A stretch of 29,766 nucleotides of DNA. Origin: a virus. The notes beneath the pieces are model-generated. The model did no database searches. It saw nothing but the letters and a program-made list of their open reading frames with translations, and was not told the DNA's origin. Positions 223 to 25,542 of this stretch are shown here, piece after piece. The position numbers and the translations under genes are program-made. Numbering within the stretch: position 1 is the stretch's first letter; every line of letters starts with the position of its first letter. The stretch spans positions 1-29,766 of IMG/VR virus record IMGVR_UViG_3300037963_002119; one strand, given 5' to 3'.

Positions 223-240
223 CAGGTTAATTTTAACTTG
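223..240. repeat. Palindrome family copy 1
   Basis: CAGGTTAATTTTAACTTG. Left arm is perfect, right arm has one change (ACTTG for ACCTG). It lies about 20 bp upstream of the minus-strand gene starting at 202 and next to the stem-loop at 242-270. Confidence 0.75.
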
Positions 241-241
241 T

Positions 242-270
242 AGAGATGAGGGGTCGCCCCCTACATCTCT
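242..270 (-). terminator. Stem-loop at end of VWA gene
   Basis: AGAGATG (242-248) pairs with CATCTCT (264-270), and inside it GGGG (250-253) pairs with CCCC (257-260) around a TCG loop. The stop codon of the VWA gene (261-263) sits inside the structure. There is no long T-run on the minus strand, so a factor-dependent or RNA-stability role is possible. It is followed on the minus strand by palindrome copy 1. Confidence 0.5.
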
Positions 271-1514
271 ACTTTCACAAATTCCCCGAAGGGATCGATG
301 TCGCCACGCCTTGGGTCAACGCCGGTCGATGCCCACAAGACAGGGAAGTGCGTCTCGTCCTGCACTTTCTTGGACAAGCTGGCCTCGCCGTCCGTGAAGT
401 AAATAAAGGCGGCAGGGTCAATGCCCTCTTGCTGGCATAACTTGAACGGCGGCTCGAAACGTGTGCCGCCACCCGACTTGTTCTCGACTTCAATGTCGTT
501 GTAGTCGGTGAACTCGTCGTAGAGATCACCACCAGCGGTGCGCTGAATGTGAGTGTCACAATAAATCACCACAACCCGGTCGGGCTTGATGATGTCTCGC
601 AAACTATCAATCTCATCAGCGAAGCGCTGCGCTTCTTTAGACGAGACGCTGCCGCTGGTGTCGATGGCGAACACCAGATCACCGCCACCCACGCCTTCAG
701 TCGAGGGGAAGTAGTCACCGCCCCCAATGAAGCGACGGTTGGGGCGAGCGAGTGTCGGCTCTTCCCCAAACGCCTTAGACAGAAAGTCAGCGAGAGCTTC
801 CTTCCAGTCCACGGTTGCGGCCTTGGCCGCTTCCAGCACACCGTCGCTGATGTTGATGGTGCCAGAGCCGGTCACCTTCTCGACCTCAGAGGCGACGATA
901 ATATCCCGGCGGATTGCCTCGGTGGCCTCCTCCAAGGCGTCACCAGAGAGACGCTCGCCGTCCTCGTCGGTGGCGTCCCATATCTCCCCGGCGTGAGTGG
1001 GGTTCTCCGGTGCGCCAGATGGCTTGTCGTCGCCTTGCGGTGCAGGGGCTTGATCACCCTCGCCGCCCGACTGCTGGTCGCCCGACTGCTGGTCGTCCTC
1101 GTGATCACCCAGCATCTTGGCAATCTGCTTGGCAGACAGCCCCCGATACTTGGGATCGAACAAAGCCTGACTGGGCAATGGTAAGTTAGCATCCCACACG
1201 ATCAAGTTGATCGCGTAGTCACAAGCTTGGTTCCACAGGTCGGGATTGATGTCGCCCCGAAGAAGATGATGCATGAGGACAACGTGCAGCCCTTCATGTA
1301 GCACCACCGCCTCAAGCTCGGCGTCTGGGGTGCTTTGAACAAAGGCGCGGTTCCAGAACATGGAGGAACCATCTGTCGCCATTGTCTCGGTTGCCGTGGT
1401 CTCGACCAGCGGCAAGCCGAAAACGATGCTGGCATAGCCCGGTGCCTTGCTGCCAAGGCGGGAACGGGCGCGAACCAAGCGCCCATATTCCGGGTCAGTG
1501 ATTGACTTGTACAC
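261..1514 (-). CDS. CobT-like protein: HExxH metallopeptidase-like plus VWA domain
   Basis: The 417-aa protein has two recognisable parts. The N-terminal part carries HEGLH (residues 73-77) followed by VVLMHH, a zincin-type HExxH motif. A hydrophilic, Gln/Gly/Asp-rich linker (about 140-190) leads to a C-terminal von Willebrand A domain with a complete MIDAS: DTSGS (285-289), a threonine in GGGTRF (about 351) and an aspartate in YFTDGE (about 375). This is the architecture of VWA-like metallopeptidases related to cobaltochelatase CobT, which work with MoxR/CobS AAA+ ATPases. Such an ATPase is encoded two genes upstream. The longest frame starts at a GTG at 1523, but that GTG is part of the AGGAGGTGAC ribosome binding site, so I prefer the GTG at 1514, nine bases after it. 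The substrate is unknown. Real cobalt chelation is unlikely, since no CobN is seen. Confidence 0.85.
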   Translation of the reverse strand: MYKSITDPEYGRLVRARSRLGSKAPGYASIVFGLPLVETTATETMATDGSSMFWNRAFVQSTPDAELEAVVLHEGLHVVLMHHLLRGDINPDLWNQACDYAINLIVWDANLPLPSQALFDPKYRGLSAKQIAKMLGDHEDDQQSGDQQSGGEGDQAPAPQGDDKPSGAPENPTHAGEIWDATDEDGERLSGDALEEATEAIRRDIIVASEVEKVTGSGTINISDGVLEAAKAATVDWKEALADFLSKAFGEEPTLARPNRRFIGGGDYFPSTEGVGGGDLVFAIDTSGSVSSKEAQRFADEIDSLRDIIKPDRVVVIYCDTHIQRTAGGDLYDEFTDYNDIEVENKSGGGTRFEPPFKLCQQEGIDPAAFIYFTDGEASLSKKVQDETHFPVLWASTGVDPRRGDIDPFGEFVKVEM

Positions 1515-1526
1515 GGTAGTCACCTC

Positions 1527-2435
1527 CTAGTTAAAGATTGTAGTTAAGTTGTCGGCCAGCTTAGTGGCCTGAGCCGCAACATGCTGCCTGTCGGCAGCGT
1601 CCTCACGCAGTGAGGCAGCAGAGCGGTTGCCCAGCACATTGACGATGTCAGTCAATGCGGCGTCCACCCGTGCGTCACCGTCGATATTTAGCGCCCGTGC
1701 TACCGGCACAAGCTCCCGCACCTTGTCCACGGTGCTGTCCCGGAACGCGGTTGCCCGCTTGTTGTCCGGGTCATAAGTGGCAAGGCTATCCGCAAAGTGG
1801 CGGATGGTGTCGATGATTGCGGTGCGGGTGTGCTCCGCGACCTCGTTGAGCCGCTTGTTAGCGCGGCCTTCTACCTCACTTTTGAGAGCGGCGACGAACT
1901 CCGCACTCGCGGTGACGCGAATGTCGTTCGAGTCAGGGATCATGTCCAACTCTCTGCCCATCTCGTAATGGTTCTCGATGATTGCATCCGCGCTGTCGTA
2001 GTCCGCGTCTTTGAAGAGGTCGGGGTTCTCCTGCCGCGCCTGTTCGATAGCACCGGGCAGTATCTTGGCAAGATCATCTACCGCCTTCTCGAATTTAGAT
2101 TGGAACTCGCCAAGGTTGCGAAGAACCTTTTCGTTCAATGCATTCGGAAGAATGTGTCTTCCGTCGTTATCCCAAGCGGGAAGCCCCCCAGTGATGCGTT
2201 CACCGTCCAAGGCACCGTCAGTATTTCCCCGGAGATAGTTCCGGGCCGCGCCAAGAATTTTTGGGGGCAGCTTCAAGATGACTGGATCGACCAGCCGTTT
2301 GGAAAGGCTCACCCACTTGTCAGTGGTGTTGAAGTTTGCCGCCGCTGTCGCAGTGGCTTCCTTGTCCTTGATGATGCCGCGCCAAGTCTTGCCATACACT
2401 TTGATAAGCACGGCCTTTTCTGAAAGCTTAGTCAT
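1527..2435 (-). CDS. Helical protein between AAA+ ATPase and VWA protein
   Basis: A 302-aa protein, mostly charged and predicted helical, with a short PILKLPPKILGAARNYLRG segment near residue 55 and an alanine-rich C-terminal half. ATG at 2435 follows GAGGTGAG. The gene ends 12 nt before the preferred VWA start, and the VWA ribosome binding site overlaps its TAG stop, so the two are probably translationally coupled. Position and length match the unnamed middle protein often found between phage-encoded MoxR/CobS-like and CobT-like genes; that comparison is from memory. It may be an adaptor linking ATPase and VWA protein, but no motif proves this. Confidence 0.7.
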   Translation of the reverse strand: MTKLSEKAVLIKVYGKTWRGIIKDKEATATAAANFNTTDKWVSLSKRLVDPVILKLPPKILGAARNYLRGNTDGALDGERITGGLPAWDNDGRHILPNALNEKVLRNLGEFQSKFEKAVDDLAKILPGAIEQARQENPDLFKDADYDSADAIIENHYEMGRELDMIPDSNDIRVTASAEFVAALKSEVEGRANKRLNEVAEHTRTAIIDTIRHFADSLATYDPDNKRATAFRDSTVDKVRELVPVARALNIDGDARVDAALTDIVNVLGNRSAASLREDAADRQHVAAQATKLADNLTTIFN

Positions 2436-2456
2436 TTCTCACCTCATAAAGATTGT

Positions 2457-2474
2457 CAGGTTAATTTTAACCTG
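2457..2474. repeat. Palindrome family copy 2
   Basis: CAGGTTAATTTTAACCTG: 8-bp perfect arms around a TT centre. It lies 22 bp upstream of the start of the 302-aa gene (minus strand) and directly after the stem-loop at 2481-2494. Confidence 0.85.
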
Positions 2475-2480
2475 AAGAGA

Positions 2481-2494
2481 GGGGCCGAAGCCCC
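2481..2494 (-). terminator. GC-rich stem-loop after the AAA+ ATPase gene
   Basis: GGGGC (2481-2485), CGAA, GCCCC (2490-2494). Read on the minus strand this is GGGGC-TTCG-GCCCC followed by TCTCTT, a UUCG-tetraloop hairpin with a weak T-rich tail. It lies 4 bp after the ATPase stop, so it may terminate or attenuate transcription into the 302-aa/VWA pair. Confidence 0.55.
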
Positions 2495-2498
2495 CCGG

Positions 2499-3611
2499 TT
2501 AGGAACGAATGTCCGCCCAGCGTAGGGCGAAGTCACGATAGGTTGCCGTCTCGGCAACTAACGGCACCCGCCGCTTGATTGCCTCAACAACGAACACCCC
2601 GATCTCCGGGGACGACCACTCGCCACGTTCCATGAACGTGACGATGTTCGCGAAGTTGTCCGCGTTTGCCCTGCGTATTAGCAGAGATGCCGCCGCGAAC
2701 TGATGCCCCACCTCACACGGTATGAGGCAGGTATCAGGGGATACCAGAGCCTCGTCTATGTTGATGCCCCGTGCGGCGTGGCACAAAGCGAGGAAGGCGC
2801 GAGCGCACTCCTCACCAACGATACCGGAGTAGACTGGCGTCTCCAGCGCAGGAGATGGGGCCAGCTTGACCGCTTGGGACAGCTTGGCAAGCGTCCGTGG
2901 CGTTGCACCTGTTGGCGTGTCCGACTTCACAGTCGGGTCCAACTTGTACAGATACTCAGGCATCTGCTTGACAAATGCAGTCACCAACGGGTCCACCTCG
3001 GCACCCGCTGCCCAGTCCAGCCAGTCCCCAACGTCGGGGGCAAGCGTGAAGTGAACGAGGCGGGAGCCTGTCTGCGTCCCCATACCGTGCGAGTTGGCGC
3101 GGTCAGACTGGCGATTGCCAGCCAGCACCACCACCACCAATCCCCGCTTGCAGTCGGGGTCAGCTTTAGGGTGACCGGGCAGGACATAGTCGCCAATGCG
3201 GCCCTCGTCGAGCAACCGCTGCACGGCAGTCTGTTTCTCCCGCGCACCTTGCGGGAACTCGTCCAAGAACAGGACGCCGTACACCGGCTCGTCGGAGCCT
3301 ACACCCGGCCAGATGTCCGGGAGAGCGCGGCGCTGCACGCCATCCACAACTACGGGGAGACCCGCGAAGTCGAGGATGTCATAGTCGTTGATGCGCCGTT
3401 CAAAAAGAATTGGCCTGTCATATTTATCCCGATCAGGCCCCACACCAGCAGGGACGTTGCGATGGTTGGCGGCGGCGGCGAATATCTTGTCGATACCGCT
3501 TTGGATTATCTGAGACTTGCCCACACCGGGCGCACCCCAGATCATTGCGGGAGAATAGGGAACGGTGAGGCAAAGCGCCTCGACCAACTGCGAAGGTTTG
3601 ATGTAAGTCAT
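2499..3611 (-). CDS. MoxR/CobS-like AAA+ ATPase
   Basis: A 370-aa AAA+ protein. Walker A is GAPGVGKS (residues 26-33), Walker B is GVLFLDEF (about 112-119), sensor 1 lies in VVVLAGNRQ (about 160-168), and an arginine in SRLVHF (about 184) is a candidate finger. The LAGNRQSD and SRLVHFTL segments resemble MoxR/CobS-type ATPases, which remodel or insert metal into partner complexes together with VWA proteins. A VWA/HExxH protein is encoded two genes downstream. ATG at 3611 overlaps the stop of the preceding 166-aa gene (TAATG), and its ribosome binding site (GAGGTGAC) lies in that gene's last codons. It is probably cytoplasmic and hexameric. Confidence 0.88.
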   Translation of the reverse strand: MTYIKPSQLVEALCLTVPYSPAMIWGAPGVGKSQIIQSGIDKIFAAAANHRNVPAGVGPDRDKYDRPILFERRINDYDILDFAGLPVVVDGVQRRALPDIWPGVGSDEPVYGVLFLDEFPQGAREKQTAVQRLLDEGRIGDYVLPGHPKADPDCKRGLVVVVLAGNRQSDRANSHGMGTQTGSRLVHFTLAPDVGDWLDWAAGAEVDPLVTAFVKQMPEYLYKLDPTVKSDTPTGATPRTLAKLSQAVKLAPSPALETPVYSGIVGEECARAFLALCHAARGINIDEALVSPDTCLIPCEVGHQFAAASLLIRRANADNFANIVTFMERGEWSSPEIGVFVVEAIKRRVPLVAETATYRDFALRWADIRS

Positions 3612-4111
3612 TAGTCAGTCACCTCATAGCTTGGGTTGATTGCGCCGATAGAACGCTTGTAAGCGTCCAACCAGCATATGTCTGCGGTGTACACAGGAAC
3701 GGCAGAATTGTCTGCCTTAACGAAGCTCCGATGTTTGTAGGGGTTATATTTAACCCCAACATAATTTGATGGGTTTGACAGAAACTCTGCCCGCTCGTCG
3801 CTCATGTCCCAGAAGCGTGGATTTAATGCGAAATTACGACCTACTGGAAACGGTCGCACCACACCAACGATCCCGGCGTGAACGTTCTTCCGTTTCTCAC
3901 GTAGGACGCGGCGGCGTCCTGCTTCGCTGACTTTGAAGATACAGTTTTCCATGTATACCATATCTGCATGAGCGACCACCCGGCCCTTGCTGGGGCCTTC
4001 GAGCGCCTTAACGCTGAAGCATTTCTTGTGCAGGTTGAAATAAACGAAGCACTTCAATCCAAGTGCGTCTCTTAGATCGTCTAAAAAAAACTGCATTCCA
4101 TTTTTAGTCAT
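3611..4111 (-). CDS. Hypothetical 166-aa protein, first gene of the ATPase operon
   Basis: Starts MTKNGMQFFLDDLRDALG. A GTG six bases further upstream belongs to the GAGGTGAC ribosome binding site, so the ATG at 4111 is preferred. The middle holds a basic segment (GRRRVLREKRKNVHAG, near residue 75) and the C-terminal part is aromatic-rich. No catalytic motif is visible. The stop overlaps the ATPase ATG by one base, so it is probably co-translated with the ATPase. I recall similar VHAGIVG-containing phage proteins without a function. A palindrome copy lies just upstream. Confidence 0.7.
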   Translation of the reverse strand: MTKNGMQFFLDDLRDALGLKCFVYFNLHKKCFSVKALEGPSKGRVVAHADMVYMENCIFKVSEAGRRRVLREKRKNVHAGIVGVVRPFPVGRNFALNPRFWDMSDERAEFLSNPSNYVGVKYNPYKHRSFVKADNSAVPVYTADICWLDAYKRSIGAINPSYEVTD

Positions 4112-4121
4112 AGTCACCTCT

Positions 4122-4139
4122 CAGGTTAAGATTAACTCA
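4122..4139. repeat. Palindrome family copy 3
   Basis: CAGGTTAAGATTAACTCA. Left arm intact; right arm diverges after TTAAC. It lies upstream of the 166-aa gene and beside the stem-loop at 4150-4172. Confidence 0.7.
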
Positions 4140-4149
4140 AGCCTCACTT

Positions 4150-4172
4150 GGTGGCACCGCGTGGATGCCACC
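4150..4172 (-). terminator. Stem-loop after the two-helix membrane protein gene
   Basis: GGTGGCA (4150-4156) pairs with TGCCACC (4166-4172) over a 9-nt loop. It lies 9 bp past the stop of the 58-aa gene in the minus direction. The stem resembles the one at 5887-5909 (GGTGCCA...TGGCACC, also a 9-nt loop). There is no T-run. Confidence 0.45.
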
Positions 4173-4181
4173 CTTGAAACC

Positions 4182-4358
4182 TCAGTCGTCGCAGAGAACG
4201 ACCATCGACCCAAGCCCAATCAGTGGGGCGAAGAAGCCGATGGTCATGAGAACGTGGCCCTGCTGGGCCGCTTGCTCAGGCGCGTATGCCACAATGAAGG
4301 GCAGGGAACACACCAACACGGTGCAAAGCACCAGCGTGAGAAAAGCGAAGAACCTCAT
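4182..4358 (-). CDS. 58-aa small membrane protein with two hydrophobic helices
   Basis: A short gene with a strong GAGGTGAC ribosome binding site. Its ATG (4358) overlaps the stop of the preceding 43-aa gene (ATGA). Residues 3-25 (FFAFLTLVLCTVLVCSLPFI) and about 37-55 (LMTIGFFAPLIGLGSMVVL) are two clear transmembrane-length hydrophobic stretches separated by a short polar turn (YAPEQAAQQGH). The protein ends in CDD. The layout suits a hairpin inner-membrane protein. A class II-like holin or a superinfection-exclusion protein are possible roles, but nothing proves either, and no lysis enzyme is seen nearby. Confidence 0.65.
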   Translation of the reverse strand: MRFFAFLTLVLCTVLVCSLPFIVAYAPEQAAQQGHVLMTIGFFAPLIGLGSMVVLCDD

Positions 4359-4486
4359 GTCGTCACCTCATCTTTCTGTTGCAACTGCTGGCGCTCGCGT
4401 TGCAATTGCTGCACGGCGCGAAGCGCTCGCAACAAGTCCGGTTGATCCGCAAGAACTTCTTCGATGGAAATTTCATATTCCTTCAT
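4355..4486 (-). CDS. 43-aa Gln/Arg-rich helical protein
   Basis: A longer frame exists upstream, but the ATG at 4486 overlaps the stop of the preceding 108-aa gene (ATGA), giving a compact protein starting MKEYEISIEEVLADQPDLLR and ending in a Gln-rich amphipathic helix (RAVQQLQRERQQLQQK). It is probably a coiled coil. The last codons provide the ribosome binding site of the next gene. Function unknown. The consistent overlap pattern on both sides is the main support. Confidence 0.55.
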   Translation of the reverse strand: MKEYEISIEEVLADQPDLLRALRAVQQLQRERQQLQQKDEVTT

Positions 4487-4809
4487 GATTCGACTCCCAT
4501 GTCGTAAAGTTTCTGTTCGATGCGAGCGCGAAGTTCCGCACCTGCGATAAGCACTGCGATACTGTTGTAGGTATCGCCTTTGCTGGGGCCGCCGCACTCT
4601 TCAAGAAATGCTTCGCCATTCTCGACGTTGCAATTCTGACAAATGCTATGTGCGTGATGGTAATAGATCACGTACTCGCAATCGTTCGCGTGCTCACGCG
4701 CCATGTCGTAGGCTTCGCCGCCGTGTCTTTTGATTTCGTCAACGATATCGCGAGCCGCTGCGGCGGCGTACTGGTCAAGGTCATAATCGCTCTTGATCGT
4801 GTCGCTCAT
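4483..4809 (-). CDS. Hypothetical 108-aa protein with Cys/His cluster
   Basis: ATG at 4809 follows GAGGTGAG. The central segment (HANDCEYVIYYHHAHSICQNC) holds several cysteines and histidines, with a further Cys at EECGG. The C-terminus is helical (AVLIAGAELRARIEQ). I recall similar phage and alphaproteobacterial plasmid proteins with an EYVIYYHHAH-like motif and no known role. A zinc site is conceivable but the residues do not match a standard knuckle. It heads a short overlapping operon (108 aa, 43 aa, 58 aa) downstream of palindrome copy 4. Confidence 0.7.
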   Translation of the reverse strand: MSDTIKSDYDLDQYAAAAARDIVDEIKRHGGEAYDMAREHANDCEYVIYYHHAHSICQNCNVENGEAFLEECGGPSKGDTYNSIAVLIAGAELRARIEQKLYDMGVES

Positions 4810-4821
4810 GTCTCACCTCTT

Positions 4822-4839
4822 CAGGTTAAAATTAACCCG
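4822..4839. repeat. Palindrome family copy 4
   Basis: CAGGTTAAAATTAACCCG. It lies 13 bp upstream of the 108-aa gene (minus strand). Its outer end is shared with the stem-loop at 4836-4854. Confidence 0.8.
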
Positions 4840-4854
4840 TCAATAATTGACGGG
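4836..4854 (-). terminator. Near-perfect inverted repeat overlapping palindrome copy 4
   Basis: CCCGTCAAT-A-ATTGACGGG: 9-bp arms with a one-base centre (as RNA, a 6-bp stem with a 7-nt loop). Followed on the minus strand by the AT-rich palindrome. Could be a terminator for the upstream genes or a second operator. Confidence 0.45.
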
Positions 4855-4902
4855 CAAACGCACCAGTCTAATGCGCTTGCTGGTCAACTACTATCACGGC
4901 TC

Positions 4903-4924
4903 AGGGCGAGCCGAAGCCCGCCCT
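4903..4924 (-). terminator. Stem-loop after the 72-aa gene
   Basis: AGGGCG-A-GC-CGAA-GC-C-CGCCCT: an 8-bp stem with one A/C mismatch and a tetraloop (UUCG on the minus strand). It lies 7 bp past the stop of the 72-aa gene. No T-run follows. Confidence 0.5.
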
Positions 4925-4931
4925 TGCTGCG

Positions 4932-5150
4932 TTATTTCATTGCGTGGACAATCTCGATCCACGCAGACTGCGCCCGCTTGGCAATTACGATTGCCAGAGA
5001 CCGCCGAAACGGCATCCCGTGCTCTGCCATCGTCTCAATGGCATGGGGTAGTATCTCCCGGACAGACGACCGGGAGTGCAACGATCCAATCTCGAATTCT
5101 TGGATCAAATCGTCAGCGGCGGCGTTCACCGCCTTCTCAGATACGAACAT
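4932..5150 (-). CDS. Hypothetical 72-aa helical protein
   Basis: Starts MFVSEKAVNAAADDLIQEFE and is almost wholly predicted helical, with a mid-protein REILPHAIETMAEHG segment. The ribosome binding site GGGAGG is 7 nt upstream. The start codon overlaps the stop of the 54-aa gene (TGATG). A TAA stop is followed by a stem-loop. No family recognised. Confidence 0.62.
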   Translation of the reverse strand: MFVSEKAVNAAADDLIQEFEIGSLHSRSSVREILPHAIETMAEHGMPFRRSLAIVIAKRAQSAWIEIVHAMK

Positions 5151-5314
5151 CAGATTCCTCCCTTGTGTTTGGGGTGGCGGCGGAAAGACCCGCGTCCCTT
5201 GCGGGGCGCGACTTTCTTTTGCTGGAACTGCCCGCCCTGTAGCGCTGAGGCTACAGGCGAGCGATGCTTAAGCGCATTGAACCGGCGCTCTTCGGCTTTG
5301 CTAACGAACTTCAT
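5150..5314 (-). CDS. 54-aa Arg/Lys-rich basic protein
   Basis: A short gene filling the gap between two others. Its ATG at 5314 overlaps the stop of the cysteine-peptidase-like gene (ATGA), and its TGA overlaps the next ATG. Protein begins MKFVSKAEERRFNALKHRSP; the C-terminal third (RKGRGSFRRHPKHKGG) is strongly basic, consistent with nucleic-acid binding. Perfect packing on both sides and a GGAAGGTGAC site upstream support it. Function unknown. Confidence 0.6.
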   Translation of the reverse strand: MKFVSKAEERRFNALKHRSPVASALQGGQFQQKKVAPRKGRGSFRRHPKHKGGI

Positions 5315-5847
5315 GACAATGTCACCTTCCCGTTTTTGATTACGAGTTGAACCTTGCCGCTCCTCTTGGGCGCGGCCTTGCGAGCCTTGCGGTCCACTGT
5401 GACCACAAGGAATATTTTCTTGCGGCGTCCCCAGTATTCCGCCGGGGTATCGCCCTCTGGCTTAGTGCTTTGATCGAAGACCAGCCCATCGACGTAGGCC
5501 TGTGCGTGGCCCCCGGTGATGAGCATGTAAGCGCCGCCCTTTGGAAGGTCGCGCACTGCATTCCTGAGAGTGCAGCGCTTGACCCGCTCGTTGAGGTCGG
5601 CGTCGATGCGAGGGTTGAGACCGGCATGGTCGAGCGCCTTGAATAGGTCGCCGCTCTCCGGTCTCAACCATGTGCTGCCGAAGCGCGGGTTCTTCGTCCC
5701 GCCCTTCCACTTGGGGCCGTACCCGCACAGCTTGCGGATGTTGTCCATTGACTTGTGCAAGCTGATGCCAGCGAGCACCGCAACGGCGGTCGGGCCGCAT
5801 ATCGGGGCGCCGCTGTCCACGCCCTGTGGTTGCTTATATTCAGTCAT
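5311..5847 (-). CDS. Possible papain/C39-like cysteine peptidase fold protein
   Basis: A 178-aa protein. GAPICGPTAVAVLAG places Cys17 at the start of a helix, as in papain-like/C39 peptidases (C-G-P-T-A pattern). GGHAQAYVDGLVFDQ gives His114 with Asp120 or Asp125 as the third residue, the order Cys-His-Asp of that fold. A basic tail (about 150-178) follows. In C39 and NlpC-like proteins this triad cleaves peptides or amide bonds. The catalytic role here is inferred from residue order only, and the protein could be an inactive homologue. ATG at 5847 follows GAGGTGAC. The gene starts a tight operon with the 54-aa and 72-aa genes. Confidence 0.6.
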   Translation of the reverse strand: MTEYKQPQGVDSGAPICGPTAVAVLAGISLHKSMDNIRKLCGYGPKWKGGTKNPRFGSTWLRPESGDLFKALDHAGLNPRIDADLNERVKRCTLRNAVRDLPKGGAYMLITGGHAQAYVDGLVFDQSTKPEGDTPAEYWGRRKKIFLVVTVDRKARKAAPKRSGKVQLVIKNGKVTLS

Positions 5848-5859
5848 GAGTCACCTCGT

Positions 5860-5877
5860 TAGGTTAATTTTAACTTG
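5860..5877. repeat. Palindrome family copy 5
   Basis: TAGGTTAATTTTAACTTG. It lies 12 bp upstream of the cysteine-peptidase-like gene (minus strand), beside the stem-loop at 5887-5909. Confidence 0.75.
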
Positions 5878-5886
5878 ATCCTACGC

Positions 5887-5909
5887 GGTGCCACCGCTCA
5901 GATGGCACC
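5887..5909 (-). terminator. Stem-loop after the 88-aa gene
   Basis: GGTGCCA (5887-5893) pairs with TGGCACC (5903-5909) over a 9-nt loop, 8 bp past the stop of the 88-aa gene. Stem length and loop length match the hairpin at 4150-4172. Confidence 0.45.
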
Positions 5910-5917
5910 TGACAGGG

Positions 5918-6184
5918 TCAAGGGTTGAAAGGTTCAAAGCCAAAGGGCGCGACCACCCAATACTGGGAGCCGCTGTCTGTTGCCGTTGAGATCACGTCCC
6001 CCACGCTGACGCTGCGGAGGAATTTAGCGGTTGGGCTTTTGTGTACCTTGCCGAGATTGCCAGCCTCGAATACCTCGTTGAGGTTGTCGGCGCGAACCCA
6101 TCCCGCGCTGCGGTATTCGTTCCACTCGATATCTTTCGAGGAAAAGGTGGGATTTGGTGACTGCCAGATGCGGTAGATTGCCAT
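5918..6184 (-). CDS. Hypothetical 88-aa phage/plasmid protein
   Basis: Starts MAIYRIWQSPNPTFSSKDIE with AAGGA 8 nt upstream. Later segments EYRSAGWVRADNLNEVFEAG and RSVSVGDVISTATD look like a compact alpha/beta fold. I recall related small proteins in phages and plasmids of marine bacteria, all without an assigned function. Two stem-loops (6214-6250) separate it from the upstream gene. Confidence 0.68.
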   Translation of the reverse strand: MAIYRIWQSPNPTFSSKDIEWNEYRSAGWVRADNLNEVFEAGNLGKVHKSPTAKFLRSVSVGDVISTATDSGSQYWVVAPFGFEPFNP

Positions 6185-6213
6185 GCTCTTGTTCCTTGTT
6201 TTGGTTTCCCTAG

Positions 6214-6250
6214 ACCGCCTCTCGGCGGTTTCGCCCGGTTACCAGCCGGG
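6214..6250. terminator. Two adjacent stem-loops between minus-strand genes
   Basis: ACCGCC-TCTC-GGCGGT (6214-6229) and CCCGG-TTACCAG-CCGGG (6234-6250). They lie between the stop of the 215-aa gene and the start of the 88-aa gene. The first could form on either strand. No palindrome-family copy is present at this junction, unlike most others of this arm. Confidence 0.45.
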
Positions 6251-6265
6251 TCTCGTCAGTAGGGA

Positions 6266-6913
6266 TTACGCGGCCTTGTCGAGGTCCGCGCTGTTGATGG
6301 CGTCCACCAAGGTCGCGGCGACATCCGCCGCACCCGGCAGGATGAGGGCGACGGCGTCGAGCAGCACTTGCGCTGCGTCGTCGTCGGCAACGGTCCCGGT
6401 GGACACGCGCTTGGCGGTCACCGTGATGTCGCCAGCCTTCGCACCCGCCGCCTTCAGCGCGGCGATTGCCAGCACCTGCGCCGGGGTCCGGTCTTCCTTG
6501 GGGTTGAGCAGGGCCACCAGCTTGGATTGGGTGGTGATTTCGAGGGCAGCAAATGTTGCCCCGATTTCTTGAGCGAAGTCCCCGGTGCTGTTGTGGCGTG
6601 TGGCGGCTTCTACCGCGTTGCCGAATTCACCGTGGCGAGCGAACTTGATGGCGTTCTCCGCCAATAGTTTCGCCTTCGCCTCTTTCACACCGGCGTCCAC
6701 GATCATCTTGCGAAAGCTGCCAGCGATTGCCTTGCGGCCTTTAAAGTTTGCCTCGTCAAGGCGCAGCGACTTGGCAACCACCGCGAGGTGGGCGATTGCG
6801 AAGAGCTTGTTCGGCTCGACGTTCTGCTCATCACGAAAGGCTGAGATAGCCTCTTCCTTGCGCTTCGCGTTTACAATCTCAGTGTGGGCGGCGTCGAAAA
6901 AGATGTTGCTCAT
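6266..6913 (-). CDS. Hypothetical 215-aa alanine-rich helical protein
   Basis: The longest frame begins at 6928, but the second ATG at 6913 (MSNIFFDAAHTEIVNAK) has TGAGG nine bases upstream and is preferred. The protein is rich in Ala and Lys and mostly helical, with an uncharged C-terminal half (TPAQVLAIAALKAAGAKAG). No enzyme motif is visible. It is the first gene of the minus-strand arm next to the control region, so it is probably expressed early; that is inference from position. The coding sequence is very GC-rich (a hand count of 6301-6360 gives 44 of 60 G or C). Confidence 0.7.
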   Translation of the reverse strand: MSNIFFDAAHTEIVNAKRKEEAISAFRDEQNVEPNKLFAIAHLAVVAKSLRLDEANFKGRKAIAGSFRKMIVDAGVKEAKAKLLAENAIKFARHGEFGNAVEAATRHNSTGDFAQEIGATFAALEITTQSKLVALLNPKEDRTPAQVLAIAALKAAGAKAGDITVTAKRVSTGTVADDDAAQVLLDAVALILPGAADVAATLVDAINSADLDKAA

Positions 6914-7343
6914 GATGGTCATCCTCATGTGTGTGTTTCGACCTTGCTAGGTCCAAGGCGCAGGATTGCGCTCATCAGCGGTGCAGCGTCAGCACCGGAC
7001 ACGTTGACCGGGCGGCGGTGAAGTTGGCGACCGTGTGTCGCCCTCACGTTCAATTGCTAGGCTGAATGGTTAATGTGGCAGCGCCACCGTCCCGGTGTTC
7101 CCCGCCTCTGGTTTCCTACGCCAGCGTCGGCGGGTGTTTGTTGTACCAGCCCGGCGATTTACAAAGGATGTCCGGGTCTGCGGGGCGCTCGTCTGGTTGG
7201 CCCTTGCCCCTGATCTGGGGTCTTCCTTCTGGGATGTTTGGGCCTGTTGCGGCCCCGCCCCTCAGCGGCGTTGACCATCTTATCCCACACTGGAAACACA
7301 ATGTAAACCCACTTTGTGCACATTCAGTGCTTTTTCTTACACA

Positions 7344-7372
7344 TTGCCTGAAACCCGCAGAAAACGTACATT
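7344..7372 (+). promoter_or_regulatory. Weak candidate sigma70-like promoter
   Basis: TTGCCT (7344-7349), 17-bp spacer, TACATT (7367-7372): 4 of 6 matches in each box. The predicted start of transcription would fall inside palindrome copy 6 (7376-7393), so the palindrome would act as an operator. Suggestive only. Confidence 0.25.
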
Positions 7373-7375
7373 TGT

Positions 7376-7393
7376 TGGGTTACTTTTAACCTG
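7376..7393. repeat. Palindrome family copy 6
   Basis: TGGGTTACTTTTAACCTG, one arm mismatch (TTAC). It lies 13 bp upstream of the micro-ORF at 7406 and exactly 100 bp from copy 7. Confidence 0.75.
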
Positions 7394-7405
7394 AAAGACG
7401 CGGAC

Positions 7406-7483
7406 ATGAGCGACGGCGACAAAAATAATTCGGATGACGAGACGCCTGAATTAACACTTCCAGCGCTTGATTCGTGGGGTTAA
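7406..7483 (+). CDS. 25-aa micro-ORF resembling the start of the small terminase
   Basis: ATG at 7406, TAA at 7481-7483. The peptide contains DKNNSDDETPELTL, which matches DKNQGDDAPKLTL at the N-terminus of the small terminase 150 bp downstream. It therefore looks like a partial duplication or a remnant of the terminase start, or an unrelated acidic leader peptide. No good ribosome binding site is seen. The stop codon lies within palindrome copy 7 (final codons GGT TAA), the same arrangement as at the ends of the small terminase and portal genes. Confidence 0.35.
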   Translation: MSDGDKNNSDDETPELTLPALDSWG

Positions 7484-7493
7484 GATTAACCTG
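7476..7493. repeat. Palindrome family copy 7
   Basis: GGGGTTAAGATTAACCTG. It includes the stop codon of the micro-ORF. The following 140 bp to the small terminase hold two short hairpins (CCCAT-TTT-ATGGG, 7528-7540; CCCCTC-A-GAGGGG, 7565-7577) and no other gene. Confidence 0.78.
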
Positions 7494-7633
7494 TAAATGA
7501 GAACGTAAGGGGAACAAATCGCCTTAGCCCATTTTATGGGTCAGAGTACCCGAAAAGCCAAAGACCCCTCAGAGGGGCTTAAAATGCGTTTTAGAGGGTA
7601 TCTATTATCCGGGCATATTTTAGAGGTCGAGAC

Positions 7634-8158
7634 ATGGAAGACGACAAGAATCAAGGCGACGATGCGCCAAAGCTTACACTGGTCGAGGGCGGCAAGGACG
7701 CGGACGGTGAGAAGCCGAGACCTGCGAAGCGCAAGTTAACGGCAAAGCAAGAGCGATTCCTTGCGGGACTGATAAGAGGCGAGAGCCAATACGACGCCTA
7801 TTGCAACGCATACAATGCCAAGGGCATGAAGCGCAGCGCAATCGACACTGAGGCGTGGCGACTTGCAGCGCACCCGGAGATCGCTCGGAGACTGCATGCC
7901 CATCAGGCGTCTATTGAGCGCGCTGCGTCCGCCTCTGCGCTCTCCCGGCGGCGGCTCGTTCTGGAGCGACTGGAGCATGAAGCGGTGAACGCGGAGAGTG
8001 ACAGCGCTCGCGTCCGGGCGCTGGAGTTGCTCGGCAAGACCCATGATGTGGGTCTGTTCGTAGAGCGCATCGAAACCGACAGCGGTGACCGCTCGCCTGA
8101 CGAACTGCGTCGCGAATTGCAGGACAAGCTGACATCGTTGCTGGGTCGCTCGGGTTAA
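7634..8158 (+). CDS. terS: Terminase small subunit
   Basis: A 174-aa protein. After an acidic N-terminus comes KLTAKQERFLAGLIRGESQY (from about residue 36), the hallmark DNA-binding start of the Terminase_2 family, followed by a helical region (AIDTEAWRLAAHPEIARRLH) and a long charged C-terminal helix. The small terminase recognises the phage packaging site and loads the large terminase, which is encoded further along the same strand but separated by an accessory block, an unusual split. The ribosome binding site is weak (AGAGGTCGAG). The final codons GGT TAA lie inside palindrome copy 8. Base composition is GC-rich like the minus arm. Confidence 0.85.
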   Translation: MEDDKNQGDDAPKLTLVEGGKDADGEKPRPAKRKLTAKQERFLAGLIRGESQYDAYCNAYNAKGMKRSAIDTEAWRLAAHPEIARRLHAHQASIERAASASALSRRRLVLERLEHEAVNAESDSARVRALELLGKTHDVGLFVERIETDSGDRSPDELRRELQDKLTSLLGRSG

Positions 8159-8168
8159 AAATAACCCG
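8151..8168. repeat. Palindrome family copy 8
   Basis: CGGGTTAAAAATAACCCG; overlaps the small terminase stop codon. The arms are CGGGTTA/TAACCCG around AAAA. Confidence 0.8.
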
Positions 8169-8356
8169 GTGCCGGTGTTGCCGTTCTCTCAGGAAAATCG
8201 GGCCACGGGGTCACCCCTTGTAGCCACACTATCGGCTGGCGCTGGGGGGACGGGGGGGCCACCCCCCTGTAATTGTTAGCGCGAGGGTGCCGGGCATACA
8301 CACTATTCCACACAAATAATCACAGCATTTTCATGGCTAGGGGGGGGTACCCCCAT
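8169..8356. other. Convergent intergenic spacer with G- and C-runs
   Basis: No gene seen. It holds G6 (8244-8249), G7 (8252-8258) followed by CCA and C6 (8262-8267), and near the methyltransferase stop a GGGGGTACCCCC palindrome (8343-8354). These can form very stable hairpins on both strands and could stop converging transcription. They lack T-runs, so a standard intrinsic terminator is not shown. G-quadruplex formation is also possible. Base composition changes from GC-rich to AT-rich in or just after this spacer. Confidence 0.5.
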
Positions 8357-8881
8357 TTAGGTACCATTCTGGCCCACGAATATAGTGTTGCCTGTATAAT
8401 TTTTATCGAATTGGTACCATGCACAATCTTCTTTACCCACATATGGTGAGTTTTCGATCCACTTGATCCTTCCTACGCTAATGATCTTCTTGCATAGGTG
8501 CATGTACGGTGCGCTTTGCTTGGTGTGCGCCCAAGCTGCATCGAACAACAGGTAGGTTGGTGCGATACTGGATAGTCTTTCTATGATTTTATGGAGTGTA
8601 TCTCTAGACCACGGGGGATTTGTGATGAATGCCTCCCCCATACACGATAGCTGGTGTGTTGCATCACCTGTTTTGATTGTGGGTATCTGTGGTTCTATGT
8701 CTGACGCTCTACTACAGACTTTACCATATCCCTTTAGGACACTTATCAGTGCTCCATTACCTGCACATGGCTCTTCGTAACGAGTGATATCCGCTATATG
8801 CGGTACGAGAGGGATGACTGCCTTGGGCGGTGTCGGATAAAAATCTCTTTCGGCCCGGTCAAAATTTGATCTTCTGCCCAT
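8357..8881 (-). CDS. Adenine-specific DNA methyltransferase-like protein
   Basis: A 174-aa protein with DFYPTP (residues 13-18), SAM-binding motif EPCAGNGAL (about 37-45) and catalytic motif TNPPWS (about 87-92), the order and type of N6-adenine or N4-cytosine methyltransferases. It would transfer a methyl group from S-adenosylmethionine to DNA, protecting phage DNA or altering regulation. It is short, and no separate target recognition domain is evident. No restriction enzyme neighbours it, so it is probably an orphan. The start ATG has no Shine-Dalgarno sequence, only T- and A-runs before it. The leader contains a terminator-like hairpin. Confidence 0.82.
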   Translation of the reverse strand: MGRRSNFDRAERDFYPTPPKAVIPLVPHIADITRYEEPCAGNGALISVLKGYGKVCSRASDIEPQIPTIKTGDATHQLSCMGEAFITNPPWSRDTLHKIIERLSSIAPTYLLFDAAWAHTKQSAPYMHLCKKIISVGRIKWIENSPYVGKEDCAWYQFDKNYTGNTIFVGQNGT

Positions 8882-8889
8882 CGTTTTTT

Positions 8890-8937: not shown

Positions 8938-8995
8938 CAAGTTGTGCAGCTTATGCACAGGGAGGAAACTCTAAATTTTCAACTCAACAACTGAA

Positions 8996-9108: not shown

Positions 9109-9110
9109 AT

Positions 9111-13596: not shown

Positions 13597-16103
13597 TGGC
13601 TGTAGAAAAACGTCTTGAAGAGAGTGAAATAGAGTTGATGGACCCAGACGGTCCAGCGCAAGGGGTTGAGGTGGCTGTTGTAAACCCTGAGGCTGTTGCA
13701 ATCTCAACAGAAGACGGCGGCGTTGTTATTGATTTCAATCCTGAGGATAGCGTTTTGGCTCAAGATAGCCATGACGCAAACTTGGCAGAAATCATGGATG
13801 ACCAAGACCTACATGCTTTGGCATCAGAGCTTAGTTCTGATTTTGAGATGGATCAAAACTCACGTTCTGACTGGGCAGATGCCTATGTAAAGGGTTTGGA
13901 CTTGTTGGGCCTGAAGGCAGAAGACAGGACCACGCCTTGGCCGGGTGCCTGTGGTGTATACCATCCTATTTTGACAGAGGCGGTTGTTCGTTTTCAGTCA
14001 CAGGCCATCATGGAGGTGTTTCCTGCGTCTGGTCCCGTCAAAACCAAGGTTCTTGGTAAAATGTCAGACGACAAACAGGAACAGGCAACTCGCGTTCAAG
14101 ACTATATGAACTATCTTTTGACGGAAAAGATGACTGAATACCGTCCTGAGATGGAACAATTGTTGTTCAGTCTGCCTTTGGCCGGGTCTGCTTTCAAAAA
14201 AGTGTACTTTGATTCAAATATGGACCGAATTTGTACGACTTTTGTACCTGCTGAAGACTTTGTTGTGAGCTATGGAAGCTCTGATTTGCAGTCAGCAGAG
14301 CGATATACGCATATTATGCGTAAATCCTCTAATGAAATTAGAAAATTGCAGGTTGCTGGGCTGTATAAAGACGTAAAATTGGGTAACGCACCCAATTATG
14401 AGACCGATATTCAAGAAAAATACGACGAAATGGAAGGCGAGAGCCGATCTGGGGACAATGACAACCGTCATGTCGTCTTAGAGATGCATGTTGACCTTGA
14501 TTTAGAAGGATTTGAGGATAAAGACGAGAATGGGGAGCCTACAGAGATAGGATTGCCCTATGTTGTCACTATTCTGAAGTCAAATAACAAGGTTTTGTCT
14601 ATACGCCGCAACTGGTACGAGGACGATAAGTCTAAAATGAAGCGTATGCACTTCGTGCATTACCAGTATATGCCGGGTTTAGGGTTCTATGGGTTTGGTT
14701 TAATACATTTGATTGGTGGTATTGCAAAAAGCGCCACTTCAATCCTAAGGCAGCTAGTTGATGCTGGTACCCTGTCCAATCTTCCGGGTGGTCTGAAGTC
14801 TCGCGGTCTTCGCATTAAGGGTGATGACAGCCCGATCATGCCGGGTGAGTTTAGAGACGTTGATGTTCCCGGTGGTGCCATTAGAGACAACATTACGTTC
14901 CTGCCGTACAAAGAACCCAGCAATGTTCTGCATCAAATGCTTGGTGAGCTTGTTGAGGAAGGGCGTAGGTTTGCCTCTTTGACCGACCTCAAGCTTGCTG
15001 ACATGAAGCAAGACGCTCCTGTGGGTACAACTCTGGCTTTGATTGAACGGTCAATGAAGGTTATGACCGCAATACAGGCGCGATTACACGCCTCAATGAA
15101 GCGTGAGTTCGTATTGATCTCTGATCTGGTGCATGACTATGGCGCAGATACAGATTACGAGTATGAGGCAGAGGATGACGCCGTAAAAGCTGAGGACTTT
15201 GACAATCGTATTGATGTTATCCCGGTCAGCGATCCAAACTCATCTACAATGAGCCAGCGTATCATGCAGTATCAAGCTGCATTACAACTCGCTCAACAAG
15301 CTCCGCAAATGTACGACATGCCTGAACTGCACAGGCAGATGTTGGATGTTCTGGGTATTCGAGATGCGGATACAATTATTCCGCTTACCAAAGAGAAGAA
15401 ACCGCGTGATCCTGTGTCGGAAAACATGGATGTTCTGAATGGTAAGCCTCTCAAAGCGTTCTCGTATCAAGATCATGAAGCTCACATACAAGTACACATG
15501 AACGCGATACAAGACCCCAAGATAACCAATCTGGTAAGTCAAAGCCCAATGGCTGGCAACATACAAGCTGCTATGGCAGCACACATACAGGAGCATCTGG
15601 GCTTTTTATATAGACGCGAGATAGAGAAACAGATGGGGGTTGAGCTACCACCTGAGGGTGAACCTCTTCCTGAAGATGTTGAAGTTAAACTGTCTCGCCT
15701 TGTCGCAGAAGCTTCTGACAGGCTGTTCCGTAAGGATGTGATGGAGGAGCAGCAGAAGAAGGCGATGGAGAAAGCGCAAGACCCTGTCATACAAATGCAG
15801 CAGCAAGAGCTTCAGCTTGAAGCAGCAGACCTTGAGCGTAAGGCCCAGACTGATACTGCGCGGATGATCAAGGACTTGAAGGAAGCTCAAATGCGTCAGG
15901 AGACTGAACTTCTTAGGATTAAATCTCAAGAGCGTATGGAAGGCGCTAGGTTGGGTGTCGAGATAGCTAAAGACGCATTAGAGGCTGAACAGAAGAAAGA
16001 AGATGTTCAGCGTAGGGGCGTTATGGACACTGCAAAGATATTATCAGATGTTGGAAAAAGCTTGATGAACCCCAATAATGGTAATAGAAATAATTCAGGT
16101 TAA
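13596..16103 (+). CDS. Portal protein, long P22-like type
   Basis: An 835-aa portal. Typical segments are WADAYVKGLDLLGLK and TPWPGACGVYHPILTEAVVR (about residues 88-130), MEVFPASGPVKT, and LPLAGSAFKKVYFD, as in portals of marine podoviruses and P22 relatives. The portal forms the dodecameric ring at one capsid vertex through which DNA enters and leaves. The first 60 residues are acidic. The last about 130 are Gln/Glu/Lys-rich and helical, fitting a P22-style barrel, and the protein is longer than the 725 residues of P22 portal. GGAAGG lies 9 nt before the ATG. Final codons GGT TAA fall in palindrome copy 9. Confidence 0.92.
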   Translation: MAVEKRLEESEIELMDPDGPAQGVEVAVVNPEAVAISTEDGGVVIDFNPEDSVLAQDSHDANLAEIMDDQDLHALASELSSDFEMDQNSRSDWADAYVKGLDLLGLKAEDRTTPWPGACGVYHPILTEAVVRFQSQAIMEVFPASGPVKTKVLGKMSDDKQEQATRVQDYMNYLLTEKMTEYRPEMEQLLFSLPLAGSAFKKVYFDSNMDRICTTFVPAEDFVVSYGSSDLQSAERYTHIMRKSSNEIRKLQVAGLYKDVKLGNAPNYETDIQEKYDEMEGESRSGDNDNRHVVLEMHVDLDLEGFEDKDENGEPTEIGLPYVVTILKSNNKVLSIRRNWYEDDKSKMKRMHFVHYQYMPGLGFYGFGLIHLIGGIAKSATSILRQLVDAGTLSNLPGGLKSRGLRIKGDDSPIMPGEFRDVDVPGGAIRDNITFLPYKEPSNVLHQMLGELVEEGRRFASLTDLKLADMKQDAPVGTTLALIERSMKVMTAIQARLHASMKREFVLISDLVHDYGADTDYEYEAEDDAVKAEDFDNRIDVIPVSDPNSSTMSQRIMQYQAALQLAQQAPQMYDMPELHRQMLDVLGIRDADTIIPLTKEKKPRDPVSENMDVLNGKPLKAFSYQDHEAHIQVHMNAIQDPKITNLVSQSPMAGNIQAAMAAHIQEHLGFLYRREIEKQMGVELPPEGEPLPEDVEVKLSRLVAEASDRLFRKDVMEEQQKKAMEKAQDPVIQMQQQELQLEAADLERKAQTDTARMIKDLKEAQMRQETELLRIKSQERMEGARLGVEIAKDALEAEQKKEDVQRRGVMDTAKILSDVGKSLMNPNNGNRNNSG

Positions 16104-16113
16104 AAATAACCTG
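16096..16113. repeat. Palindrome family copy 9
   Basis: CAGGTTAAAAATAACCTG; contains the portal stop codon and lies 10 bp upstream of the next start. Confidence 0.82.
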
Positions 16114-20948: not shown

Positions 20949-20975
20949 CGGGTCAATGTAAAATGTAGGGTTGTC

Positions 20976-21741: not shown

Positions 21742-21923
21742 TGTCTATATCCAGAAGTCAAATGGGCAGTCAATTGAAGGGCGGTAAAAAAATGCCAGCA
21801 AAGAAACTTAGCTCAAGGCAAAAAAAGCTCGCTAGAGTTGCTCCCCCAAGGAATAAAATTACCGGGGCAGACTTTAAAAAGTTAAAAAAGTCTAAACCAT
21901 CTAGTAGGCGTAAAAAGAAGTGA
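21741..21923 (+). CDS. Lys-rich 60-aa protein
   Basis: ATG overlaps the previous stop (TGATG). Starts MSISRSQMGSQLKGGKKMPA, a start seen in many small marine phage proteins, and ends PSSRRKKK. It is extremely basic. Probably a minor virion or DNA-binding protein. Confidence 0.62.
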   Translation: MSISRSQMGSQLKGGKKMPAKKLSSRQKKLARVAPPRNKITGADFKKLKKSKPSSRRKKK

Positions 21924-22456
21924 ATGTGACCAACAACGTCATTAGGGAGGAGTTGAAAGATTGGTCTAGCTCTGTGCTAGAAATACCGAACCCGCACCTC
22001 TCTGGGCTTCCAGCTTGTCCTTACGCAAAAAAATCTTGGTCTGATGGTCGAGTGCAAACCCTTGTGGGAGAAGACGTTTTAGACTTGAAAGAGGCGATAT
22101 CTTGGTATGATCCAGCCACCACAGACATATTGATATGGGTTAATTTTAACCTTGGTCGTCAGGATTTGTGGGAGCGCTGGACTACGTTGTGGAACAGGAG
22201 GAATGTTGAAAAAGATATTCACTTGATGTTGTTTCACCCTAATTATCCGCCGTCAGAGGATAGTGAGGAGTTTTTAACTGACAATAATTGGGAGTCGTCC
22301 CTTGATGATTACATGATGGTTTTTATTCAGTCTCTGTCTGCACTAAATAAAGCAAGTGTAGCGCTGGAAGGGATTGGGTACTATAATCATTTTTCAGATC
22401 ATCTTTATCAAACCATGGTTTTGGATAGAAGGAGACCTTGCGATGGCAATGGGTAA
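21920..22456 (+). CDS. Hypothetical 178-aa acidic protein
   Basis: A GTG start (21920 or 21926) and a segment IPNPHLSGLPACPYAKKSW near residue 22 that I recall from other marine phage proteins. The rest is acidic and aromatic (WERWTTLWNRRNVEKDIHLM). It is the only acidic member of this cluster. Palindrome copy 10 lies inside the coding region. Function unknown. Confidence 0.68.
   Translation: MNVTNNVIREELKDWSSSVLEIPNPHLSGLPACPYAKKSWSDGRVQTLVGEDVLDLKEAISWYDPATTDILIWVNFNLGRQDLWERWTTLWNRRNVEKDIHLMLFHPNYPPSEDSEEFLTDNNWESSLDDYMMVFIQSLSALNKASVALEGIGYYNHFSDHLYQTMVLDRRRPCDGNG
22136..22153. repeat. Palindrome family copy 10, inside a gene
   Basis: TGGGTTAATTTTAACCTT, encoding WVNFNL in the 178-aa protein. 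This is the only copy well inside a coding region. It may be chance or a site kept despite coding needs. Confidence 0.7.
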
Positions 22457-22574: not shown

Positions 22575-22578
22575 TTAG

Positions 22579-23842: not shown

Positions 23843-23851
23843 GGTTCTGTT

Positions 23852-24484: not shown

Positions 24485-24774
24485 TTTCTGACTCATTATC
24501 TACTGGAGAGGTGCCGTCAGTATTCGTTCAAACAAGTTCAAATGGCGGTTTGTCCGCTGAACAAATAGCTGACTTATGTTGTCGCAAGCTGGTGCATGTA
24601 TCTGAGGACGCCCCTCCTGAAATTAGAGATCAGGCAAAGGTCTTTAAAGTTCGTGTAGAAAATTTGATTTTGGGTTATATTAAAGAAGCTATGAGGGCAG
24701 AGCGAGATCGTTGCGTTCATGTCGCTTCTTCTGGTGGTTATGATGATCTCGCGAATCTCTTGAGGAGAGTGTAA
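24481..24774 (+). CDS. Hypothetical 97-aa protein
   Basis: ATGA overlap with the adaptor gene and TAATG overlap with the next. Contains SAEQIADLCCRKLVHVSEDA and an amphipathic helix (VRVENLILGYIKEAMRAERD). Two adjacent cysteines. Family unknown; placement suggests a tail assembly factor. Confidence 0.62.
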   Translation: MISDSLSTGEVPSVFVQTSSNGGLSAEQIADLCCRKLVHVSEDAPPEIRDQAKVFKVRVENLILGYIKEAMRAERDRCVHVASSGGYDDLANLLRRV

Positions 24775-25208
24775 TGGCTTTTAGCGGGAATTTTATGTGT
24801 ACTTCTTTTAAAAAGGAGATTTTAGAAGCTGTACACAATTTTAAAAACAGTGGGGGCAGCACCTTTAAGCTTGCCATGTATACCAATTCTGCAAGTTTTA
24901 CGGCTGCAACGACAGCGTATACGACCAGTAATGAGGTTAGTGGAACTGGTTACAGCGCGGGTGGCGGTACTCTTACGAGGGTAGACCCCACGAGTAGTGG
25001 TACAACGGGCTTCACTGATTTTGCTGATCTCACATTTAGTTCGTCTACTATAACGGCTCGCGGTGCTTTGATATATAATGACTCAGCAAGCGGAGACCCA
25101 AGTATCGTTGTTTTGGATTTTGGCTCTGATAAAAGTAGCTCATCTGGAGATTTTACGGTTCAGTTCCCCGCTGCTGATGCGTCGAATGCTATTATTAGAA
25201 TAGCATAG
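24774..25208 (+). CDS. Tail/virion structural protein, beta-rich
   Basis: A 144-aa Ser/Thr/Gly-rich protein. NFMCTSFKKEILEAVHNFKN and FKLAMYTNSASFTAATTAYT are a pattern very frequent in marine phage tail clusters. GGAGAG precedes the start. Probably a fibre-base or decoration component. Confidence 0.68.
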   Translation: MAFSGNFMCTSFKKEILEAVHNFKNSGGSTFKLAMYTNSASFTAATTAYTTSNEVSGTGYSAGGGTLTRVDPTSSGTTGFTDFADLTFSSSTITARGALIYNDSASGDPSIVVLDFGSDKSSSSGDFTVQFPAADASNAIIRIA

Positions 25209-25217
25209 GTGTAAGGT

Positions 25218-25520
25218 ATGTCTTTAGCGGGATGGGGTCGAGGAAGTTGGGGAAGTGGTGCTTGGAATGCCCCCGCCCCCGTTGAAGCTACAGGTGTTGC
25301 CGGTACGGGCGGTGTTGGCAGCGTTACTATTGGTGAAGGCGTAGGCGTTGCTGTCACTGGTTTGTCGGGTACTGGTCAAGTCGATGGCGGCACAATAATC
25401 GCGCTGCCAATTACTGTTCCAGTGACGGGTGTGTCTGCCACCGGACAAACGTCACAGGCTAATGTTTGGAGCGAGGTTGGGCCAAATCAGAATGCTAATT
25501 ACCAAAGGATAGCTGCTTAG
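25218..25520 (+). CDS. Glycine-rich 100-aa protein
   Basis: MSLAGWGRGSWGSGAWNAPA followed by repeats of the form V-T-G-x-S-x-T-G-Q (VAVTGLSGTGQ, VPVTGVSATGQ). Such W/G-rich starts with short tandem repeats recur in marine phage tail genes. Probably a structural, extended protein. TAAGG lies before the ATG. Confidence 0.62.
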   Translation: MSLAGWGRGSWGSGAWNAPAPVEATGVAGTGGVGSVTIGEGVGVAVTGLSGTGQVDGGTIIALPITVPVTGVSATGQTSQANVWSEVGPNQNANYQRIAA

Positions 25521-25542
25521 TTGAGGTTAAATTTAACCTCAA
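25521..25542. repeat. Palindrome family copy 11, longest and perfect
   Basis: The core GAGGTTAAATTTAACCTC (25523-25540) is fully self-complementary, and TT/AA extends it to 22 bp. Outer AGCTG (25511-25515) and CAGCT flank it. It lies right after a stop codon and 18 bp before the next start. Confidence 0.85.

Follow-up and report, generated by a model that had tools for sequence, protein, structure and literature searches.

The IMG/VR virus record IMGVR_UViG_3300037963_002119 (29,766 bases, analysed whole and hereafter called the window) covers part of the genome of a podovirus-like tailed phage and carries a family of short palindromes, GGTTAA-NN-TTAACC and close variants, spread over both of its arms. 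We consider it reasonably probable that these palindromes would be operators of one phage-encoded dimeric regulator working along the whole genome, putatively the product of the gene here called p220, which heads the leftward arm. The broader proposition is that the p220 family, which is without known fold or relatives, would control whole genomes through dozens of palindromes lying before genes, over stop codons and within coding sequence, and may have coevolved with them into five or more dialects, whose bearers range from uncultured phages of the sea to one cyanophage in culture, so constituting a new family-wide system; we regard this proposition as evenly poised.

The palindrome family and its conservation

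At no more than one mismatch, 12 sites in the window match GGTTAANNTTAACC, compared with a mean of 0.08 and a largest count of 1 in dinucleotide-preserving shuffles, and the reversed pattern, used as a control, has no match. The preliminary description of this DNA had listed eleven such palindromes, at coordinates that are the starts of 18-bp extents and lie 2 bp ahead of the 14-bp cores used here. Its count withstands shuffling and all eleven were located, five of them perfect (core starts 2459, 4824, 7478, 22138 and 25525) and six with one mismatch (225, 4124, 5862, 7378, 8153 and 16098); a twelfth, GGTTATATTTAACC at 3742, is new. All except 3742 and 22138 lie not wholly within a called gene (10/12, vs 13.5% of random positions; binomial P 1e-7), and in seven of the 12 cases a start codon follows 12-23 bp downstream.

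The relatives compared here are metagenomic contigs, except for the cultured Planktothrix phage Pag-Yong1 and its near-identical kin, and their gene calls are our own. Among 80 terL relatives, nearly all of those at ≥86% identity have the motif and, short fragments excepted, none of those at ≤82% does. Pooled over the 12 genomes that share the letters of the window (dialect D1), there are 82 sites in 380 kb vs 3 for the reversed-pattern control. As the preliminary description had anticipated, palindromes are retained at equivalent places, which in D1 lie at either end of terS, over the portal stop, ahead of the fibre gene and within gene 21920-22456. The dyad persists while inner and outer bases vary: the portal-stop site (16098), for instance, is palindromic in all clade members with differing inner bases, and palindrome-free relatives have no spacer there. 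The base after TTAACC is mostly T, then G, and the flanks are variable. Copying of one insert was rejected because of the unrelated flanks and the variable inner bases with retained symmetry, which bears out the earlier view that the arms are held by selection. In a scan of the whole collection for the pattern, hits outside the clade were mostly single sites, among the matches listed.

The four genes with internal sites are particularly informative. All 14 of 14 core codons are invariant across lineages, vs 10-18% of other conserved codons, and the site at 22138 is read as GTT AAT TTT AAC in 10 lineages alike. Because of this codon identity, selection is on the DNA word and not on the protein alone.

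Dialects of the palindrome and the p220 family

Other dialects were reached by following a neighbouring gene, and then terL, outward. Dispersed dyads of the form AAGTTMNNNNKAACTT (dialect D2) occur in G023, G035, G040, G048 and others, with G024 favouring C/G inside; AAGTTAANNTTAACTT (D2') occurs in G045 and TTGTACNNNNGTACAA (D3) in G036-G039, G042-G044 and G054. All three share the 16-18-bp register of the window's AGGTTAANNTTAACCT. Site counts stand well apart from their controls (G023, 15 vs 1; G024, 9 vs 0; G038, 10 vs 0; G039, 6 vs 0), and G035 has 13 exact sites. In Pag-Yong1, GGTTCANNNTGAACC occurs in 32 copies in the first 50 kb (control 0) and 5 in the rest, making 37 in 65 kb, many of them 21-22 bp before start codons; its dyad centre is 3 bp, so its register is one base off from that of the other dialects. 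Three palindromes of other clades, GAATCTAGATTC, CTAGGN4CCTAG and CTATAGGTACCTATAG, were rejected as dispersed dialects, since for the most part they cluster locally between terS and terL. In palindrome-free relatives the same interval contains closely packed arrays of other palindromes (L109 7618-7719, L107 11335-11428, L105 14380-14486), perhaps an origin or packaging site. Outgroup terL loci (L027 5673, L028 10412, L045 9500 and others) each have one conserved GTTTCANNTGAAAC, with the 6-2-6 geometry of the window motif, as a single site.

The dialects also bear on whether the palindromes act as RNA. Small hairpins upstream of ribosome-binding sites, affecting stability, processing or translational control, would suit Pag-Yong1 and many window sites, where the dyad stands just before the Shine-Dalgarno sequence. 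However, stem covariation is absent in D2 (positions 5/10 are paired in 15/30 cases vs 43% expected, and the half-sites vary independently), non-wobble A-C mismatches outnumber G-U in D1 in the mRNA sense, sites also lie within genes and at gene ends, and there is no Rfam match. We therefore judge an RNA role very improbable. The earlier suggestion of a dimeric protein-binding site under selection stands in so far as it is favoured by the conserved places, the synonymous-site conservation, the lack of RNA-type covariation and the dyads with other letters. Its suggested binder, the winged-helix protein (9806/9917-10171), does not: no homologue of the gene was found in carriers G010-G013, and it is present in palindrome-free G015, G016 and G025. 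A LexA-type operator of this gene (9806-10171) was likewise rejected, because the gene does not co-occur with the sites.

The family that does track the palindromes is p220. In hidden Markov model (HMM) searches it turned up at the locus divergent from terS in each dialect genome that spans this locus and in 0/11 palindrome-free genomes spanning it. In an unbiased screen of 75 G035 genes it was the sole family broadly present in all dialects (8/6/1/5 genomes), and it had no hit among 15 records without palindromes, the locus being covered in 11 of these. G015, which is palindrome-free yet near the window's clade, keeps a p220 remnant of only 74 residues. An HMM built without Pag-Yong1 matches two Pag-Yong1 proteins, one at the p220 locus (38932-39495; E 4.5e-8) and a second with E 3.4e-7; palindrome-free genomes and shuffled proteins gave no significant match. 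The second p220-like Pag-Yong1 gene (L419 32003-32842) has an alanine-rich end and strong composition bias and is a possible regulator paralogue. The terL tree, which has long branches and an unsure placement of Pag-Yong1, holds at least three changes of palindrome label (two forced), and p220 tracks them; the match of p220 and palindromes is therefore not one of shared ancestry only. Because sister phages use other letters and p220 co-occurs, the evidence points to a phage-encoded regulator, and the regulator is probably p220.

Two other kinds of binder deserve comparison at this point. The sites may be bound by another phage protein with p220 hitchhiking, the candidates being the CopG-like ribbon-helix-helix protein RHH1 (beside the integrase), RHH2 (beside the primase) or a missed open reading frame (ORF). 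The two ribbon-helix-helix proteins are present in the clade of the window and belong to a class that binds palindromes, but neither was found in carriers G023/G024 and both are present in palindrome-free relatives; RHH1 and RHH2 were rejected as binders on these grounds, and we hold this alternative as a whole to be unlikely. Alternatively, a host transcription factor, CtrA-like or other, may bind the sites, with dialects that mirror the hosts. TTAACC is common to the CtrA half-site, and hosts are known for a minority of the lineages. CtrA sites are spaced as TTAA-N7-TTAA. The GGTTAA/TTAACC spacing, on the other hand, is fixed at 2 bp, in line with the mismatch to CtrA already pointed out in the preliminary description, and the TTAACCAT half-site is not conserved. 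Moreover, sites are retained within phage structural genes and, over no fewer than three changes on the terL tree, they come and go with a phage gene, p220, so that a host factor appears quite improbable.

Proposed mechanism and lifestyle

Upstream of the site at 7378, the window and six relatives retain TTGCNN-N17-TA plus four bases, after which terS follows. The window's version (7344..7372; Table 1) has 8/12 consensus matches and lies below the threshold of the scan made here. Its transcripts would begin at the palindrome's edge, as is classic for an operator. Leftward sites mostly lie immediately before a ribosome-binding site, often behind a terminator-like hairpin, and no promoter was recognised there; a bound protein could therefore act mainly on passing polymerase at these sites. 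In 14/14 genomes the p220 gene contains no site and has one downstream of it, which is weak evidence given the site density; p220 could thus be transcribed while the rest is blocked.

Table 1. Palindrome sites and associated features of the window (core coordinates; strand where assigned)
Feature	Position	Strand	Remarks
Palindrome site	225..238	-	Upstream of leftward gene 2-202; AGTTAAAATTAACC on minus strand, 1 mismatch
Palindrome site	2459..2472	-	~23 bp upstream of leftward gene 1527-2435; perfect; orthologous sites in G001, G014, G007, G008
Palindrome site	3742..3755		Within gene 3611-4117 (L5 gp82-like); 1 mismatch; retained in G014
Palindrome site	4124..4137	-	Directly upstream of leftward gene 3611-4117; 1 mismatch; retained in G014
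Palindrome site	4824..4837	-	Upstream of leftward gene 4483-4809; perfect; adjoins terminator-like hairpin 4855-4835
Palindrome site	5862..5875	-	Upstream of leftward gene 5311-5847; first site downstream of p220 gene; 1 mismatch; retained in G014
p220 gene, proposed palindrome-binding regulator	6266..6928	-	Heads leftward arm, divergent from terS; alignment ATG at 6913
Sigma-70-like promoter TTGCCT-N17-TACATT, proposed rightward	7344..7372	+	Conserved in G014, G007, G008, G010, L009, G001
Palindrome site	7378..7391	+	5 bp downstream of -10; proposed operator over transcription start; 1 mismatch; orthologues in G014, G007, G008, G010, L009
Palindrome site, second near terS	7478..7491	+	Overlaps micro-ORF (7406-7483) stop; perfect; retained in G001, G009
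terS	7634..8158	+	First full rightward-arm gene; PHROG terminase small subunit
Palindrome site	8153..8166		Over terS end; 1 mismatch; retained there in G014, G001, G009, G010, G012, G013
Palindrome site	16098..16111	+	Over portal stop codon, 12 bp upstream of GTG 16124; 1 mismatch
Palindrome site	22138..22151	+	Within gene 21920-22456 (VNFN codons); perfect
Palindrome site	25525..25538	+	22 bp upstream of tail-fibre-like gene 25561-26943; perfect; retained in G014, G009, G002, G004

We infer a mechanism in which dimers of p220, the product of the first leftward gene, would occupy the dyads. Bound at 7378, p220 would sit on the start of the rightward promoter and block initiation. Elsewhere, mostly 12-23 bp before start codons, at gene ends or within long operons, it would be a stoperator-like roadblock to elongating RNA polymerase, a role that the stop-codon and intragenic sites fit. 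The genome would be silenced arm by arm, with early and late genes kept off in the prophage state or in a superinfecting phage; where members have no integrase, the build-up of p220 may turn the early genes off. Regulator and sites would drift together, giving one dialect per lineage.

The same dyads could instead serve a phage DNA-organising, partition or packaging protein (ParB/centromere- or nucleoid-like), bound by p220 with transcription not primary. Such a role would accommodate sites within and between genes genome-wide, steps of ~1.4-2.7 kb in the left arm of G037/G038, the conserved sites on both sides of terS, and the several carriers that lack an integrase and might persist as plasmids. 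However, of the proteins annotated or scanned none was recognised as ParA-like, and a structural role needs neither sites close to start codons (at 12-23 bp in the window and chiefly at 21-22 bp in Pag-Yong1) nor a site at a promoter start; we rate it as rather unlikely.

Several observations weigh against p220 as the regulator of these operators. The protein has no match in Pfam, PHROG, PDB sequences, PDB folds or BFVD viral folds, and no recognised DNA-binding domain. Its predicted structure is nearly all-helical in a fair model (predicted local distance difference test, pLDDT, 82; predicted template modelling score, pTM, 0.57), a first model from six sequences having been poor, and fold searches with both models were empty. 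Identity between dialects is 14-20% and some pairwise profile comparisons are weak. The G035 screen is blind to genes missing from fragmentary contigs, and three minor G035 families (131, 106 and 171 aa) also have zero negatives, with fewer positives. Most palindrome carriers, including the near-complete G035 and the cultured Pag-Yong1, show no integrase, and there are integrase-bearing outgroups without palindromes; prophage silencing would therefore be no more than a possible role, and early-gene shut-off in lytic growth is just as plausible.

With regard to lifestyle, a tyrosine integrase is present in G005-like members and in the palindrome-free outgroup, and none was found in the window's nearest subclade or in the D2/D3 genomes. 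One such integrase lies at 2669-3505 of L084, and the window's nearest subclade (G001, G002, L244, L245, L247) lacks it at that place. A terL search found no prophages of these relatives in bacterial genomes, matches to the major capsid protein in bacterial genomes were mostly contigs of metagenome-assembled genomes, and no tRNA was found that might hint at an attachment site.

The window's rightward-running genes include terminase, portal, GroES and tail-fibre-like genes. Its leftward arm encodes an L5 gp82-like protein and a DUF2201 metallopeptidase/VWA protein with an ATPase (261-1523 and 2499-3611), the latter pair being kept in the leftward arm across the family. Terminase identity is 54-58% to 023Pt_psg01, DSL-LC04 and the Pelagibacter phages HTVC023P/027P and ~48% to Pag-Yong1; the window phage is a distant relative of HTVC023P, 023Pt_psg01 and Pag-Yong1. 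The paper on HTVC023P-type phages makes no mention of integrase or palindromes, and our literature search found no paper on the palindromes of Pag-Yong1. Terminator-like hairpins adjoin leftward palindromes (4835-4855 and other leftward spacers), and terminator-like sites are doubled in window 1-9300 (20 vs 9.8 in shuffles). Just upstream of terS, the micro-ORF MSDGDKNNSDDETPELTL... (window 7406-7633) repeats the terS N-terminus, with the second palindrome over its stop; it is also found in G001/G009 and not in G014, and is thus probably a partial duplication of the terS start.

Comparison with known genome-wide repressor systems

Repressor sites spread over whole genomes have been described in few phage groups, the best-known cases being actinobacteriophages and SPbeta, and very little is known of regulation or lifestyle in the aquatic phages concerned here. 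The dialects form a natural series in which the joint change of a DNA-binding specificity and of its dozens of sites can be studied, and the system can be tested in cultured phages (Pag-Yong1, Pra-JY27, MinM2).

The stoperators of cluster A actinobacteriophages are 13-bp asymmetric sites, oriented with transcription and bound by a monomer of helix-turn-helix type (L5 gp71 and relatives; PMC9283540, PMC6550527). As in that system, many copies of one short site lie across the genome, at promoters and in short intergenic spaces (12 in the window, 37 in Pag-Yong1), and related phages differ in site letters along with the repressor, here proposed to be p220. In contrast, the sites of the window phage are dyad-symmetric palindromes of 14-18 bp that also lie within genes, p220 matches no Pfam, PHROG or PDB family, and the phages, podovirus-like and from aquatic samples, are unrelated to those of cluster A. 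The Bacillus prophage SPbeta has a master repressor, MrpR (YopR), and a repeated 15-bp element, SPBRE, at dispersed places (PMC10516654). A phage-wide repeated element with a proposed single regulator is common to both systems; MrpR, however, is an inactivated tyrosine recombinase, whereas p220 has no integrase-family match and an empty fold search, and the letters of the element differ. Phage P1 has several dispersed operators of its c1 repressor, which are asymmetric 17-bp sites. The scattering of one repressor's operators over the genome is thus shared with P1, whereas the symmetry of the sites and the protein are not. Set beside these systems, the one proposed here would, if true, be an invention of its own, in which the sites are symmetric, those within genes are maintained through synonymous codons and the protein family is new.

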